Shown here: positions 8,739 through 18,338 of the stretch, piece by piece
How positions within the stretch are numbered: position 1 is the stretch's first letter
Layout of the letters: every line of letters starts with the position of its first letter
Source: Sphingobacteriia bacterium
Lineage (GTDB): Bacteria > Bacteroidota > Bacteroidia > UBA7662
Direction of reading: 5' to 3'
Length of the DNA stretch: 34,732 nucleotides
Assembly: GCA_009927485.1 (NCBI GenBank)
Contig: RFMW01000104.1
Coordinates: forward strand, 1-34,732
Program-made: the position numbers and the translations under genes
The notes under the pieces: model-generated
Databases searched by the model: none
Seen by the model: the letters and a program-made list of their open reading frames with translations, nothing else
What the model was told of the DNA's origin: nothing

Positions 8739-8756
8739 GCATTGCAGAGGCAATGC
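8739..8756 (+). terminator. Hairpin GCATTGC-AGAG-GCAATGC downstream of cdd
   Basis: Perfect 7-bp inverted repeat, 4-nt loop, 15 bp after the cdd stop; T5 run only some distance downstream, so an imperfect intrinsic terminator. Confidence 0.4.
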
Positions 8757-8795
8757 GATGATTTAGCCCGATTTTTGAAGTCAAATTGTTTTTAC

Positions 8796-11053
8796 ATGAC
8801 ACAGGTCTTCAAATCGCCTTTCTCGGTCACTTTTTCCAAAATTCGTGCATTTTTCATGCTAATGGGGATTTGGGGCTTTTTGGTTTTGTTCAATGGTAAG
8901 GCTTTTGCCCAAAACATCACGGTTCAAGGCCAGGTTTCCAGCAATATGGCCGGGATCAGCATCCCGTTGCCCATGCAGGCGGTGTTGATTAACCTAGGGG
9001 CAAATACCACCTTGACAACCATGACGGATTCCACGGGGTTCTACTCGATTTCGGCAGCGGCTCCAGCCTTGAGCCCCAATGCTCGGATCCTGGTTTCGAC
9101 CAATTGTCCCAACAGTGGACCGGTGAGCAATTCACAATTATTGAATCCTGCGCTCACCGTGTATAACATTCCATTGACCTGTGGTGCCGGAGGCGGGGGG
9201 ACCACGACCATGGTTTTGGTTAACGGCACCTTGCAATGGGGTACAACCACCGCCCCTGCCGGTCAATTGGTTAAATTCTATCTTGGTGGATCTGTTGCCC
9301 CTGTGGATTCCATCATGACAGGAATTAACGGGGTTTTCCAGGATACGTTGAATCTTTCCATCGCAAGTATAGGTAGTACGGCGTTAATTGCCGTTGCCCC
9401 TTGCAACAACGGCGCGTTAATACGGGATACCGCCATGGTTTCCGTGACCAGTCCTGTCGCCTTGTTTCAATTGACTTGTTCGGCTGTCCCTGTCAACAAT
9501 ATTACCGTTCAAGGGCAGGTCTTATCGAATACCGGTCTGCCCATGGTAAACACCCCTGTTCGCATTTTGATGGCCAATACCGTTACCTTGACCGCCTATA
9601 CCGACAGCATGGGATATTATTCGGCGACTTTCTCAGCACCATCGGTTTTGCCTGGTGCCGTCATAACCGTTTCTGCACTTTGTGGAGGGCCCACAGGACC
9701 CGGTACCCCTGCCACAGGAACCGCTACGTATGTTCAAGGGACCTCTAGCTACACGGTGAATTTAGCCTGCGGTGCAACGAGCAGCAGGGTGCTTACTGTG
9801 TCGGGGGTTTACCTTGATCCCTCCGGATCGGGTATCGCCGGACAAATCGTACAATTATATCATAATCAATACAATACGCCATTAAGGACACTTACAACCT
9901 CGGCCGGTGGGTTCTTTGCGGATACGTTGACCACCACGTTAACGACCGGGTTCGTTTATGCAGTATCCTCCTGCGGGCCTGTACCGGTTCCGCCAGAGAC
10001 ACTGCATTTTACAACGGCAGTTCAAGTGTGCTGAATCTTCAATTGCAATGCGGCCCGCCGGCTGGGCAACATCGGGTGTCGGGTATGATCACCGGTTTCA
10101 CATCGGCGAATCCCATGAATTTTGATACCCTTTCCCTGGTGGTTATTCGAATACTGCCGAGTGGTCAAGGGCAGGTGGGGGGTTGGGCCACCGTGGACAC
10201 GGTCTATTTGTTGGATAGTGCCGGCTCGGCTTATTTTAATCTGATGTTACCAACAGGTCGTTACAGCCTGCTTGCAACCTTGCTCTCCGGCAATGCGTCC
10301 CAATATGCACCAACCTATTACGGGGATACCACCACGTGGACCCAAGCGGATTCCTTCAATCTCCCTGCCAATGCAACCTCCTTCCTTGTGATTGATCTCT
10401 GTGCCAACCAAGGGGGAACAGGGGGTGGAACCATTGGCGGAGGGGTAGCCGGGAACTTGCCAAGGTTGAGCGGGCCCTTGGCAGGGATTCAAGTCCAATT
10501 GATCAATGCCAACGGGATGAATCCTGTAGCTCACCGCAGTTCAGTGAGGACAGGGCCGGCCGGCTCCTTTGCCTTTACGAATATTCCCTACGGTTCCTAT
10601 ATGTTACGGTGCGAACACCCGGGTATGCATTCGAATATGGTGCCGATCATGTTGAGTGTTGGTTCACCTGCCCATAACTCGACCGTTTTCAATGCAGGTT
10701 CCAACGGGTTCACTGCTTCGACATCTTCCTTGCGGAATCTTGACCTTGGCATAGCTACGATTTACCCCAACCCGGTGAAATCAGGCCAAGAGCTGATCAT
10801 CCATTGGAATGTGGCTGATTTTGGGGCTGATTTTGCATCCGATGAGCCTTTGATCGTGTCCATCCGGGATTTACAGGGTAAGGCTTCTGTTTGTCAGGAG
10901 ATTAGCCCAAGCAACATGGGTCCGATGGGGGATCAAAGCCCTGGGTTTAGGGCAGGCCTTTCGACCAGCGGGCTCAAAGCGGGGATTTACATCCTGGATT
11001 TGCATCATTTCAGCGGTTTATCCAAAGTATTTCGTCTGGTTGTAGAGCCTTAG
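8796..11053 (+). CDS. Large secreted repeat protein (about six carboxypeptidase-regulatory/Ig-like modules) with T9SS C-terminal domain; frameshifted at about 10007-10010
   Basis: ORFs 8742..10034 and 10028..11053 are continuous if one T is added at CATTTTACAAC (giving ...LHFYNGSSSVLNLQLQCG...); N-term signal peptide; C-term TIYPNPVKSGQELIIHW...AGIYILDLHHFSGLSKVFRLVVEP. Confidence 0.8.
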
Positions 11054-11069
11054 GGCTTGATTATCTTTG
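11040..11069 (+). promoter_or_regulatory. Bacteroidota-type promoter candidate (TTG-N19-TATCTTTG)
   Basis: TTG at 11040-11042 and TATCTTTG at 11062-11069, matching the TAnnTTTG -7 consensus; about 29 bp upstream of ORF 11098. Confidence 0.5.
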
Positions 11070-11097: not shown

Positions 11098-11499
11098 ATG
11101 GCCTACTTAGCCTTTTTGCGTCGATTGTTTGCGGCTTTTATGGGCCTATCCCTGCTTGGGGTCTGTTTGTTCGTCACCAAGCCCGAGGGAAGGACGGAAT
11201 TGCAGCCACAAGGGTTCTCATCCAACGGGACTTCCAAGGAAAAGGAAGCCGACAAAGAGGCCAGGGTGTCCCCTGCCTTGCAACCCTGGTACCATCTTAC
11301 CCCTCAAACCCATGTCGCAAATTCGTCGCAGGACGAATCGACAACGGATGCCGATGACGTCCAGTTCTTGTCCATTCATTCAGGTGGTCCATCCATAGGC
11401 GGGGTTTGGTGGTCTCTGAAATCCATCTCCATCCCCAGGGCCGTATTGGCTGTTTGGGGTTTGATGCTCTCAACGGCCCTACCAACCCGAGCCCCGTAG
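11098..11499 (+). CDS. Putative secDF leader peptide (candidate translational-arrest Sec monitor), 133 aa
   Basis: N-terminal signal-anchor MAYLAFLRRLFAAFMGLSLLGVCLFV; hydrophilic middle; C-terminal hydrophobic AVLAVWGLMLSTALPTRAP-stop; promoter-like motif upstream; immediately precedes secDF. Confidence 0.5.
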   Translation: MAYLAFLRRLFAAFMGLSLLGVCLFVTKPEGRTELQPQGFSSNGTSKEKEADKEARVSPALQPWYHLTPQTHVANSSQDESTTDADDVQFLSIHSGGPSIGGVWWSLKSISIPRAVLAVWGLMLSTALPTRAP

Positions 11500-11566
11500 G
11501 GGGTTACAGCACTTAGCTCTGCAAAATGGTTTAGGGCACGCTTTGCAGAAAAATAGCCCCGTTTTT
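11499..11566 (+). promoter_or_regulatory. Structured leader region between the small ORF and secDF
   Basis: Perfect inverted repeat TCTGCAAA (11518-11525)/TTTGCAGA (11542-11549); CCCC-gta-GGGG at the ORF stop; GCCCCGTTTTTT at 11556-11567 can alternatively pair with upstream G runs. Confidence 0.4.
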
Positions 11567-11591
11567 TCTTTAATCTTAATTATAAAAATTT

Positions 11592-14500
11592 ATGAAAGCC
11601 AAAGGTGCTGTGCGGTGGTTTGCCGCTTTGTTTGCGTTGATTTGTTTGTATCAACTGAGTTTTACTTGGATTGCCTCCAACGTGGAAAGCGATGCTAAAC
11701 GTTATGCTCAAGGAGACGAATCCTTGGAAAGACGCTACCTGGATTCGATTGCCGAGAAAGAGGTCTTCAATTTCTTGTGGCTCAAGAAATTCACCTATGC
11801 CCAGGTTCGTGATCAGAAACTAAATCTGGGGCTTGACCTTCAAGGAGGTATGAATGTGGTGATGGAAGTGGATGTCGTGGATGTTATTCGGGCTTTGAGT
11901 AACCAGAGCAAAGATCCGGCCTTCAACAAAGCCCTTGAATTGGCCACCAGCAGGCAGGCCTCTTCGCAATCGGATTATGTTTCACTTTTTGTTCAAGCCT
12001 ACAAAGAGCAGGCCCCCAATGCCCGCTTGGCCGGCATCTTTGCAACGCGCGAAAACCAAGGTCGAATTGATTTCAATACCTCCGATGAAGAGGTCGTCGC
12101 CGTAATCCGTGCCGAGGCAGAAAGTGCCATTGACCGCTCATTCAATATCTTGAGAACCCGTATTGATAAATTCGGTGTTACGTCTCCCAATATTCAGCGC
12201 CAACAAGGATCTGGAAGAATTAACATAGAATTGCCCGGTGTTGATAATCCGGACCGTGTACGCAAACTCTTGCAGGGTACCGCTAAGCTTGAATTTTGGG
12301 AAACTTTCGAAGCAGCGGAAGTCCTCGATAGGGTTGCGGAAATCAATAAATTCCTGGCTGCCGAATCCAAACTCCAAGGGAAGTCGGCAACTGATAGCTC
12401 AACCAAGCCGGGAGATACCACCGCCGCATCGGCGGATACCTCATCCGCTAAGAATGCGCTGTTGAGTGATCTTGCCAAGTCCGATACTTCGATGGCCGGC
12501 GACACTTCGGAAGCAGGACTGGCCAGGACCAGGCAAGAAAATCCTTTGTTTGCCATCCTGATGCCTGCGGTTTACCAAGACAAAGACGGGAGTTCCAAGG
12601 TATCCCAAGGCCCCATCGTAGGAACATCGGCTGCTCGCGATACAGCTGCCGTCAACGCCATCTTGGCCAGGACCGAGGTGAAAAATTTCTTGCCGAGAAA
12701 CATGAAGATGTTGTGGACCGTGAAAGGGCGTGGGGAGGGCAACCGCTTCTTTGATTTGGTGGCCCTCAAAAAGCGCGGAAATGAGGATCAAGCCGGATTG
12801 GAGGGGGATGTGGTGACCGATGCCAGGGAATCCATCGATCCCTTTGGTAAAGTGGAAGTTTCCATGACCATGAACGCCGAAGGCGCCAAGCGCTGGAGAC
12901 GCATGACTGCCGATAACATTGGGAAATCGGTGGCCATTGTGTTGGATGATTATGTGTACTCTTTCCCCACAGTTCAGTCAGAAATCTCCGGGGGGATGTC
13001 CTCCATTTCCGGGAATTTCACCACCGAAGAAGCCAAAGACCTTGCCAATATCCTCAAAGCCGGTAAGTTACCAGCGCCTGCTCGGATTGTCGAGGAGGCT
13101 GTGGTTGGGCCTAGCTTGGGTAAAGAAGCGATTCAAAGCGGATTATGGTCCATCGTCATGGGCTTGTTGTTGGTCTTGGTCTTCATGGCCTTGTATTATG
13201 CCGGTTCTGGTCTGATTGCCAATGCCGTTTTGTTCGCTAACATTTTCTTCATCTTCGGTATTCTGGCCTCGCTCCAAGCGGTTCTTACCCTGCCTGGCTT
13301 AGCGGGTATTGTATTGACCATCGGTATGGCGGTGGATGCAAATGTTTTGATTTTTGAACGTATTCGTGAAGAATTGGCTCGATCCAAAAGCCAACGTCAA
13401 GCGGTGAGCGATGGTTTCTCTAACGCGTATTCATCGATTATTGACGCGAACGTCACGACCATCCTCACCGGTATTGTCTTGTATGTATTTGGTTCAGGCC
13501 CCATCCGTGGATTCGCGACGACCTTGATTGTGGGTATTCTTACCTCCCTCTTTGCGGCCTTGTTCCTTTCCCGCCTGATTATGGAATATTATGTTTCCAA
13601 AGACAAACCCATCACCTTTGGGACTTCCGCCACCTTGAAGATGTTCACTAACCTGAACTTTGACTTTTTGGGAAGGCGCAGGCTTTGGTACGGCGTTTCG
13701 CTTACCGTGATTGTGGCTGGTTTGATCTCCATGTTTACGCAGGGTTTCAATTTGGGGGTTGACTTCAAAGGAGGACGCAGTTATGTGGTGACTGTGGATT
13801 CTGATCGAGGTGCAGCAGATATCCGATCGGCCTTGACGGCCGTTTTCGGTTCGGCTCCGGAGGTCAAAACCTTTGGCAGTGATCGACAATTCAAGATCAC
13901 CACCACCTACAAAATCAACGATAACAGCCAAGCAGTTGACGCAGAAGTGGAAGAGAAATTATGGCAGGGAATGTCGGGCCTTTATCAGGCCAAACCCAGC
14001 CAAGAGACCTTCAAGGCTAATTATTTGATGAGTTCGCAGAAGGTAGGGCCAACGATTGCGGATGATATCAAGGCCTCGGCGATTTGGTCGATTCTTTTTG
14101 CTTTGGTTGCCATCTTCGTTTACATCGTGATTCGATTCCGCAAATGGCAATACGCTCTCGGTGCCACAGTGGCCTTAGCGCACGATGTTCTGGTGGTTCT
14201 TGCCGTCTTCACCCTGGGATGGAAGTGGTTCCCTTTCTCGATGGAAATAGACCAGGCCTTTATTGCTGCTATTTTGACCATCGTGGGGTACTCAATTAAC
14301 GATACCGTGGTCGTCTTTGACCGTATCCGAGAAGATCTTGGGACGAAGAAACTCACAGCCGATAAGAGCATAATGAATAACGCCCTGAACACCACGCTAT
14401 CACGTACCTTAATTACAGCATTTACCACCATCATCACGGTGGTGGTTTTGTTCTTATTCGGTGGCGATGTGATCAAGAGTTTCTCTTTTGCCATTTTGAT

Positions 14501-14594
14501 TGGACTTATTGTGGGTACCTATTCTTCCATTTTCACAGCCTCGGCCTTGGTCCTTGATACCGTGAAGTGGATGGAAGGTCGTTCCAAGCGATAA
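11592..14594 (+). CDS. secDF: Protein translocase subunit SecDF (fused SecD-SecF)
   Basis: LGLDLQGGMNVVMEVD, GMAVDANVLIFERIREE, FNLGVDFKGGRSYVV, SINDTVVVFDRIREDL; 1000 aa. Confidence 0.97.
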   Translation: MKAKGAVRWFAALFALICLYQLSFTWIASNVESDAKRYAQGDESLERRYLDSIAEKEVFNFLWLKKFTYAQVRDQKLNLGLDLQGGMNVVMEVDVVDVIRALSNQSKDPAFNKALELATSRQASSQSDYVSLFVQAYKEQAPNARLAGIFATRENQGRIDFNTSDEEVVAVIRAEAESAIDRSFNILRTRIDKFGVTSPNIQRQQGSGRINIELPGVDNPDRVRKLLQGTAKLEFWETFEAAEVLDRVAEINKFLAAESKLQGKSATDSSTKPGDTTAASADTSSAKNALLSDLAKSDTSMAGDTSEAGLARTRQENPLFAILMPAVYQDKDGSSKVSQGPIVGTSAARDTAAVNAILARTEVKNFLPRNMKMLWTVKGRGEGNRFFDLVALKKRGNEDQAGLEGDVVTDARESIDPFGKVEVSMTMNAEGAKRWRRMTADNIGKSVAIVLDDYVYSFPTVQSEISGGMSSISGNFTTEEAKDLANILKAGKLPAPARIVEEAVVGPSLGKEAIQSGLWSIVMGLLLVLVFMALYYAGSGLIANAVLFANIFFIFGILASLQAVLTLPGLAGIVLTIGMAVDANVLIFERIREELARSKSQRQAVSDGFSNAYSSIIDANVTTILTGIVLYVFGSGPIRGFATTLIVGILTSLFAALFLSRLIMEYYVSKDKPITFGTSATLKMFTNLNFDFLGRRRLWYGVSLTVIVAGLISMFTQGFNLGVDFKGGRSYVVTVDSDRGAADIRSALTAVFGSAPEVKTFGSDRQFKITTTYKINDNSQAVDAEVEEKLWQGMSGLYQAKPSQETFKANYLMSSQKVGPTIADDIKASAIWSILFALVAIFVYIVIRFRKWQYALGATVALAHDVLVVLAVFTLGWKWFPFSMEIDQAFIAAILTIVGYSINDTVVVFDRIREDLGTKKLTADKSIMNNALNTTLSRTLITAFTTIITVVVLFLFGGDVIKSFSFAILIGLIVGTYSSIFTASALVLDTVKWMEGRSKR

Positions 14595-14622: not shown

Positions 14623-15557
14623 ATGGCTAACATCGAAGTAGATTCATGGACCCCTGCTGATTTCGAATCGGCAGGGGTCTTGGATTTATTGGCAAGGCAG
14701 TCCGTCGAAGGATTTATAACCGGATTGCATGCCAGCCCGGATCACGGGTTTTCGGTGGAATTTGCTGAACATCGGTTGTACAATACCGGTGAATCGACCA
14801 GGCATATTGATTGGAAATTGCTGGCAAGAACCGACAAACTTTTCACCAAGCGTTACGAAGAAGAAACCAATTTAAGAGCGCATTTTTTGCTGGATGCATC
14901 GGCGTCGATGTTTTATCCGGAGGGAACCGGGAGAAAATGGGAATTTTCGATAAGAGCTATAGCCGCCTTGGTGCATTTGTTAGAGAAGCAACGGGACGCG
15001 TACGGTCTCCTGCTTTTTGACAAGGAACTCAGGAGGATTTTGCGCCCCTCCATGGGCAAATCCCATCATCATCGGATGATGTTGCATCTTCAGAAAGCCT
15101 GCGCTCCAAGGCTGAGGATTATGGCGGTCAAACCAAGTTGTTGCCGGCCTTGCATGAATTGGCAGAAACCATGCCGCCTCGGTCCATGCTTGTTTTGTTT
15201 AGCGATTGTTTTGAAACGGGACTCAATTCCATGGACGAACTTGCCGCTGCTTTGCAACACCTTCGGTACAAAAAGCACGAGGTGCTCTTGTTTCATACCG
15301 TTGATGAAGCAACGGAATTGGCCTTTGACTGGCCCAACAGGCCCTATACGTTGGTGGATCCCGAAAGCGGGAGGCAATTGCGCTTGAACCCTGCCGAATA
15401 CCGGGAAGCCTATCGCGATCAGGCCCTAAAGTTTCGAGAATCCTTGCGCCTTCGTTGCGGTCAATTTGGAATTGACCTCATCGAGGCCGACTGCGCTACG
15501 GGTCATGTCAAGGTCTTGGAGGCCTTTTTGAGAAGGCGTTCCCGCCGAAACCTGTAG
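14623..15557 (+). CDS. DUF58 domain-containing protein, frameshifted at about 15094-15096
   Basis: ORFs 14623..15387 and 15138..15557 join if AAA becomes AAAA at 15094-15096 (HLQKSLRSKAEDYGGQTKLLPALHELAETMPPRSMLVLFSDCF...); DUF58 motifs DWKLLARTDKLFTKRYEEETNLRAHFLLDASASM. Confidence 0.85.
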
Positions 15558-17571: not shown

Positions 17572-18338
17572 CGGGATGATTGGGGTCCTGTGGAGGATCC
17601 GGGCTGATCCAAGTGGACCGGGCCAATTTGACGCATGAGGCGTTGAATCTTGGAGGCCCTTCGTCGCATGTAGGGACTGGGTTGACCGGGATTTCGTTGT
17701 CGAGGGTTGGGGAAGGCGGCGACCAACAAAGCAGCTTGACGTTTGCTCAAATTAGCAGCGCTCTTGTGAAAATAGGCTTGGGATGCAGCTTCGGCACCGT
17801 ATATGCCAGACCCCATTTCAATGCTGTTGAGGTAAACCTCCATGATGCGCTGCTTGGACCAAAGCAATTCAATCGTAACCGTGAAATAGGCTTCCAGGCC
17901 TTTCCGTAAATAATTACGTGCCGGCCAAAGGAAAATATTTTTGGCAGTTTGTTGGGAAATCGTCGATCCACCCAACATGCGCTTATTGCCTTTTTGATTT
18001 CTGCGGTAGGCACGTTGCAGAGCCTCAAAGTCAAAGCCATGGTGTTCCATGAAATGTTGATCCTCGGTGGCTACTGCCGCTTGGATTAAGTGGGGAGAAA
18101 TCTGTTCCAACGGCACCCAATCCCTGTACCATCGGTGGGCTTGGCCTTCTTGGGGTTCCTCCATCAGTCTGATGAACATCAGCGGTGTAAAGGGAATTGG
18201 CACCCAGCGGTAAAGCAAAGTCAACGCCAGGGAAAACAGCCACAAACCCAAGAAAAATCGAAAAACTAAACGAATCATTTGAATCTTTTGAGCCAGGGCC
18301 ATGGGTAACCAGGGTTTCTCAGGCCCATTGGAGCCCAA
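17568..18338 (-). CDS. mtgA: Monofunctional biosynthetic peptidoglycan transglycosylase
   Basis: AAVATEDQHFMEHHGFDFEAL, GGSTISQQTAKNIFLWP, RIMEVYLNSIEMGSGIYGAEAAS (GT51 motifs); ATGA overlap with the LptF/G-type gene. Confidence 0.93.
   Translation of the reverse strand: MGSNGPEKPWLPMALAQKIQMIRLVFRFFLGLWLFSLALTLLYRWVPIPFTPLMFIRLMEEPQEGQAHRWYRDWVPLEQISPHLIQAAVATEDQHFMEHHGFDFEALQRAYRRNQKGNKRMLGGSTISQQTAKNIFLWPARNYLRKGLEAYFTVTIELLWSKQRIMEVYLNSIEMGSGIYGAEAASQAYFHKSAANLSKRQAALLVAAFPNPRQRNPGQPSPYMRRRASKIQRLMRQIGPVHLDQPGSSTGPQSSR

Follow-up and report, generated by a model that had tools for sequence, protein, structure and literature searches.

A putative Sec-monitoring leader peptide ending in Arg-Ala-Pro-stop, and its Ala-Pro-stop relatives upstream of secDF throughout an order of Bacteroidota

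In a screen of 30,175 genomes by Fujiwara et al. (2024), six clusters of secDF upstream open reading frames (uORFs) with a C-terminal Pro were used to define the class uDF_NAP-stop, which comprises 396 uORFs (400 genomes) and is found chiefly in three orders of Bacteroidota (PMC10987492). The clusters were grouped by the terminal Pro, the Asn at position −3 being a consensus residue and not a grouping criterion (PMC10987492). In PURE translation of a member of this class, peptidyl-tRNA reached ~30–50% with E. coli ribosomes and >50% with B. subtilis ribosomes, and replacement of the stop codon by a lacZ alpha fusion gave mainly the full-length product; stalling of the class needs residues −3 and −1, and by toeprinting the stalled ribosome has the stop codon in its A site (PMC10987492). 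In the RAPP and RAPG arrest peptides, it is peptide-bond formation that is blocked, with Pro- or Gly-tRNA in the A site (PMC10951233). Among the papers searched, no later one on the stop-type arrest class was found.

The window, by which we mean the whole 34,732-nt stretch of DNA analysed, contains an ORF running from ATG to TAG directly 5′ of secDF on the same strand (Table 1). The initial annotation, made from the sequence alone, had described this ORF with its R-A-P codons, its TAG, and its distance to secDF, and all of these coordinates were correct. It had also described a promoter-like TTG-N19-TATCTTTG before the leader and the lack of a TAnnTTTG motif up to secDF, and both were found as described, no such motif occurring on the + strand between leader and secDF. 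The TATCTTTG box also precedes the leaders of five genomes of the same genus (G003, G004, G005, G006, and G007), and the layout of promoter, leader ORF, and secDF is compatible with cotranscription. The secDF product is a complete fusion of SecD and SecF (Pfam SecD_SecF_C, E 4e-80, among others), and no second secDF copy was found in the window's own genome (G000). The spacer between the signal and the predicted arrest site of the leader is ~107 aa, well above the 30 aa that the published screen required. Hydropathy agrees with the N-terminal signal or transmembrane segment that had been proposed, and the N-termini are hydrophobic in the leaders of all complete relatives. The initial annotation had recognised no family for the leader, and no convincing match was found in Pfam or NCBIfam.

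Table 1. Coordinates of the leader, its promoter, and secDF in the window
Feature	Position	Strand	Basis
−33 element TTG of Bacteroidota-type promoter (TTG-N19-TATCTTTG)	11040..11042	+	sequence; consensus only
−7 element TATCTTTG (TAnnTTTG)	11062..11069	+	nearest downstream + strand match at 17936
Leader ORF, 133 aa, TAG stop; candidate translation-arrest (monitoring) peptide	11098..11499	+	sequence, relatives, alignment
N-terminal hydrophobic export signal, residues 1–26	11098..11175	+	hydropathy; complete relatives likewise hydrophobic N-terminally
Gln-Pro-Trp, residues 62–64	11281..11289	+	conserved in both genus branches, 61–71 residues from C-terminus
Tunnel-side residues −9 to −4, S-T-A-L-P-T	11470..11487	+	Pro at −5 in 8/11 representatives
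Arg-Ala-Pro, predicted arrest residues −3 to −1, Pro in P site	11488..11496	+	codons CGA GCC CCG
TAG stop, predicted A-site codon of stalled ribosome	11497..11499	+	relatives: TAG, TAA, or TGA; toeprint of published class
Leader-secDF intergenic region, 92 nt, AT-rich 5′ of secDF ATG (11592)	11500..11591	+	sequence
Possible outer stem, GGGGTTA (11500–11506) with TAGCCCC (11554–11560)	11500..11560	+	predicted fold, z −1.21
Possible inner hairpin, TCTGCAAA (11518–11525) with TTTGCAGA (11542–11549)	11518..11549	+	weak support
secDF, presumed regulated gene	11592..14594	+	Pfam; single copy

Two genes next to this locus are interrupted in the window. Upstream, 8742–10034 and 10028–11053 (+) are adjoining ORFs with CarboxypepD_reg domains and a Por secretion tail, and their counterpart is a single open frame in the relatives L037 (771 codons) and L049 (740 codons), which indicates a frameshift in the window near 10030 that may be genuine or may stem from assembly. 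The gene 3′ of secDF lies in two frames (14623–15387 and 15138–15557, +) and is one ORF of ~315 codons in L037 and L049, pointing to a second frameshift near 15100. Despite the frameshifts in these two neighbours, the frame and C-terminus of the leader were confirmed by three relatives.

The sample for comparison covered the whole order of the window, with 21 genomes in six genera and three families, and in 20 of these genomes the sequence upstream of secDF could be read. All 20 have, 74–167 nt 5′ of secDF, a leader ORF that ends in (R/Q/L)-Ala-Pro-stop; it is complete in 19, the contig of G008 carrying the last 21 residues only, and the leader of G002 sits on a contig end separate from most of the G002 secDF. 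Searched at the protein level, 60 related genomes yielded leader homologues only within the genus (G001, 83%; G002, 78%; G004, 46%), together with a match to the 21-residue C-terminal piece in G008; SecDF identity in the genomes with leader homologues was 93–96%. The other leaders were located by position, by inspecting the DNA 5′ of every secDF, and A-P-stop ORFs were found in this way in G003, G005, G006, and G007, in three further genera belonging to the family, and in the two remaining families. The search for an exported ORF with a conserved C-terminal R-A-P and a drifting linker 5′ of secDF, which the initial annotation had suggested as a check, was thus positive in 20/20 genomes; Ala-Pro-stop is strict, and the Arg of the proposed motif varies (Arg, Gln, Leu).

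In an alignment of 14 leaders from the six genera, A132 and P133 were the only invariant columns, and the rest of the leader has diverged to 15–22% identity between genera. Residue −3 is Arg in the window's genus and in family f3; the rest of the order has Gln or Leu. Endings within the genus are LPTRAP and GFGRAP, and those of the order's other genera P(A/S)LAP, M(P/Q)AQAP, QPAQAP, RPFRAP, and RPSQAP. Besides the Pro at −5, Thr at −9 (7/11 representatives) and an aromatic or hydrophobic residue at −10/−11 recur, though not in the GFGRAP branch. That second branch of the genus (G003, G005, and G007) ends in FKGKGN(L/V)GFGRAP, so that two unrelated tunnel sequences end in the same RAP within one genus. 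The C-terminal hydrophobic stretch noted earlier is present in the window leader and missing in these three genomes, and a C-terminal membrane segment was rejected as a conserved feature. Gln-Pro-Trp is shared by the window leader and those of G003, G005, G006, and G007, in the context LQPWYH or FFQPW(H/S). It lies far outside the ribosome tunnel, where it could contact the translocon or SecDF; other genera have a vaguer hydrophobic patch at that place.

Within the order, no comparable leader was found 5′ of secA (0/18 loci), nor 5′ of yidC in the window's own genome. Beyond the order, the majority of the families sampled in the class were without an A-P-stop-type secDF leader, and such leaders end in NAP, KGP, or QGP in f18, NAP in f69, QAP in f52, and RAP or LAP in f4, with Asn at −3 in the sample occurring in f18 and f69 only. 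Leaders of three f18 genomes (L084, L115, and L158) end in PNAP-stop; three others (L113, L114, and L116) end in ILFERIIST(K/Q)GP-stop, with Gly replacing Ala at −2. In f4, a distant family with genomes of ~7 Mb, the endings HPALAP, PLTRAP, and PPTRAP (L087, L173, and L177) include near-matches to the LPTRAP of the window, and the ORF at the same place in L159 ends in LSFR. In a SecDF tree the order of the window grouped together (support 99), and the deep branches were left open, with three label changes; one origin and repeated origin of the A-P-stop leaders of Bacteroidota are both compatible with this phylogeny. In the tree, the row L053 stands on a very long branch, and the ORF taken for it is probably not the right one.

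By analogy with the published class and from comparison of sequences, the window leader is very probably a Sec monitoring substrate of the uDF_NAP-stop type. The initial proposal of a Bacteroidota Sec sensor that stalls while a stop codon occupies the A site gains support from the match to this toeprinted class (PMC10987492). Points counted against this reading are that the Arg at −3 differs from the Asn tested in the published class, that Leu-Phe at −11/−10, which recurs in f18 and in genera of the window's family, is lacking in the window's own genus, and, as set out below, that whole-ORF constraint is not visible in the closest pair and that intergenic folds are mostly ordinary. From the uDF_NAP-stop class we infer stalling of the window leader and its relief by pulling; coupling to secDF is presumed. 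Leader and secDF would share one transcript that starts at the leader's promoter, the peptide would be exported via its N-terminal signal, and the spacer would be long enough for the chain to engage SecYEG ahead of arrest. When SecYEG and SecDF pull the chain, termination would proceed and secDF expression would be basal; during slow export, the ribosome would remain on the stop codon and secDF downstream would be expressed more. For the coupling step, we favour with low confidence that the stalled ribosome prevents an RNA fold next to the stop codon.

All Ala codons (GCC, GCT, GCA, and GCG), all Pro codons (CCG, CCA, CCC, and CCT), and all three stops (TAG, TAA, and TGA) are in use at the leader ends, indicating that selection acts on the peptide; among ORFs of at least 40 aa in the same DNA, 25 of 7185 (0.35%) end in AP. 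Synonymous and nonsynonymous changes in the last 12 codons numbered 5 and 0 between G017 and G019, 6 and 1 between G012 and G016, and 5.5 and 1.5 between G003 and G007. Over the whole leader, dN/dS in the wider pairs was mostly 0.1–0.6 versus 0.03–0.05 for SecDF, i.e. constraint is weak. In the closest pair, G000 and G001, the whole ORF shows no visible purifying selection (4 synonymous and 24 nonsynonymous changes, dN/dS ~2 on few sites), as would be expected if the ORF were incidental and its conservation inherited similarity without function. However, this replacement excess could be explained by the fast-drifting spacer, and A-P-stop is kept across the three families although dS is 0.6–2.4 in several leader pairs; conservation across the whole order already refutes an incidental ORF, to which we give almost no credence. 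A small secreted protein that has a function of its own, such as a SecDF partner or envelope protein with Ala-Pro as a functional or protease-protecting end, would account for the export signal, the strict synteny with secDF, and Gln-Pro-Trp as a second conserved patch outside the arrest motif. It is nevertheless improbable, given that the mature part is barely conserved between genera and carries no convincing domain, that the invariant residues lie exactly at the stop codon, and that a related ORF class stalls (PMC10987492).

Control by RNA was considered for the intergenic region: the leader would be translated normally, with no arrest by the nascent chain, and this translation would govern a hairpin or terminator before secDF. 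In G000, the predicted outer stem begins right after the stop codon and is followed by GTTTTTTC (11554–11567), which gives a terminator-like layout, and its 5′ arm would sit under a ribosome stalled at the stop. The stem is also predicted in G001, and G002 and G008 have TGGGTTA/TAGCCCA with one compensatory pair. The stem is, however, not kept in G004 or in the other genus branch (G003, G005, G006, and G007), nor is the T-run, and folding energies are ordinary, intergenic folds being mostly no more stable than dinucleotide shuffles (z −3.4 to +0.9). MAFFT alignments of the intergenic regions gave no clean common stem, and Rfam gave no relevant match. An intrinsic terminator was rejected because the intergenic region gave no match in a pattern scan and the T-run proved not to be kept in relatives; a conserved RNA structure was likewise rejected, hairpins being drawable in most species with energies unremarkable against shuffles. 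As differing codons encode a C-terminus whose peptide is constant, RNA alone is insufficient to explain the conservation, and an attenuator of this kind is very unlikely, more so than a protein with its own job. For the Sec-monitoring reading, an intergenic hairpin as the coupling element is predicted and weakly supported.

This leader type was already published in 2024 as uDF_NAP-stop, a class that the initial annotation had not recognised. What is added here is its presence throughout an order, the natural exchange of residue −3, and the finding that a single genus has rewritten its tunnel-side motif. In this order of Bacteroidota, whose members are mostly uncultured, secDF is preceded by a termination-arrest type of leader with no exception in the sample; thus, Sec-activity feedback looks fixed in the order. 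A more far-reaching interpretation, which we hold tentatively and think somewhat doubtful, is that RAP-stop leaders are a hybrid uniting two known arrest chemistries: they would share the P-site geometry of RAPP-type Arg-Ala-Pro, but with hydrolysis by release factor blocked instead of peptide-bond formation, with −3 exchanged among Arg, Gln, Leu, and Asn by lineage, with the tunnel-side motif rewritten within a genus while RAP-stop is kept, and with SecDF induced without Shine-Dalgarno unmasking. The RAP/QAP/LAP/NAP/KGP series and the two tunnel sequences offer natural material on which contacts block termination, and both bear on how a stalled ribosome raises a downstream gene in bacteria not relying on Shine-Dalgarno sequences.

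Among known arrest peptides, TnaC senses tryptophan, not export. VemP and SecM resemble what is proposed for the window leader, being exported arrest peptides controlling secDF2 or secA in cis, but they arrest elongation at unrelated sequences and belong to Gammaproteobacteria. The window leader contains neither a VemP RxxxWKxxNxxY-like motif nor the SecM FxxxxWIxxxxGIRAGP, and its downstream gene is secDF, not secA; moreover, SecM unmasks a Shine-Dalgarno sequence, whereas none was seen 5′ of the secDF ATG in the 92-nt intergenic region. The RQH family (ApdA, ApdP, and ApcA, with RAPP or RAPG) is alike in the peptidyl-Arg-Ala-Pro-tRNA in the P site, as predicted for the window leader, and in having secDF or yidC downstream (for RQH also secA). 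No R-A-P-P, R-A-P-G, R-A-G-P, or R-G-P-P motif occurs in the window leader, which has a stop codon after R-A-P, so that hydrolysis would need to be blocked instead. The class uA_NSP-stop (PMC10987492) shares the phylum, the termination-type arrest predicted for the window leader, and the C-terminal Pro, but lies 5′ of secA in Sphingobacteriaceae, whereas no such leader was found at the 18 secA loci of the window's order. The closest likeness is to uDF_NAP-stop: the window leader is a short uORF 5′ of a Bacteroidota secDF, with no annotated function, an export signal or transmembrane segment as judged by hydropathy only, a long variable spacer, and a conserved C-terminal Pro-stop, and it differs in having Arg at −3 (Gln or Leu in sister genera) where the published class has Asn.
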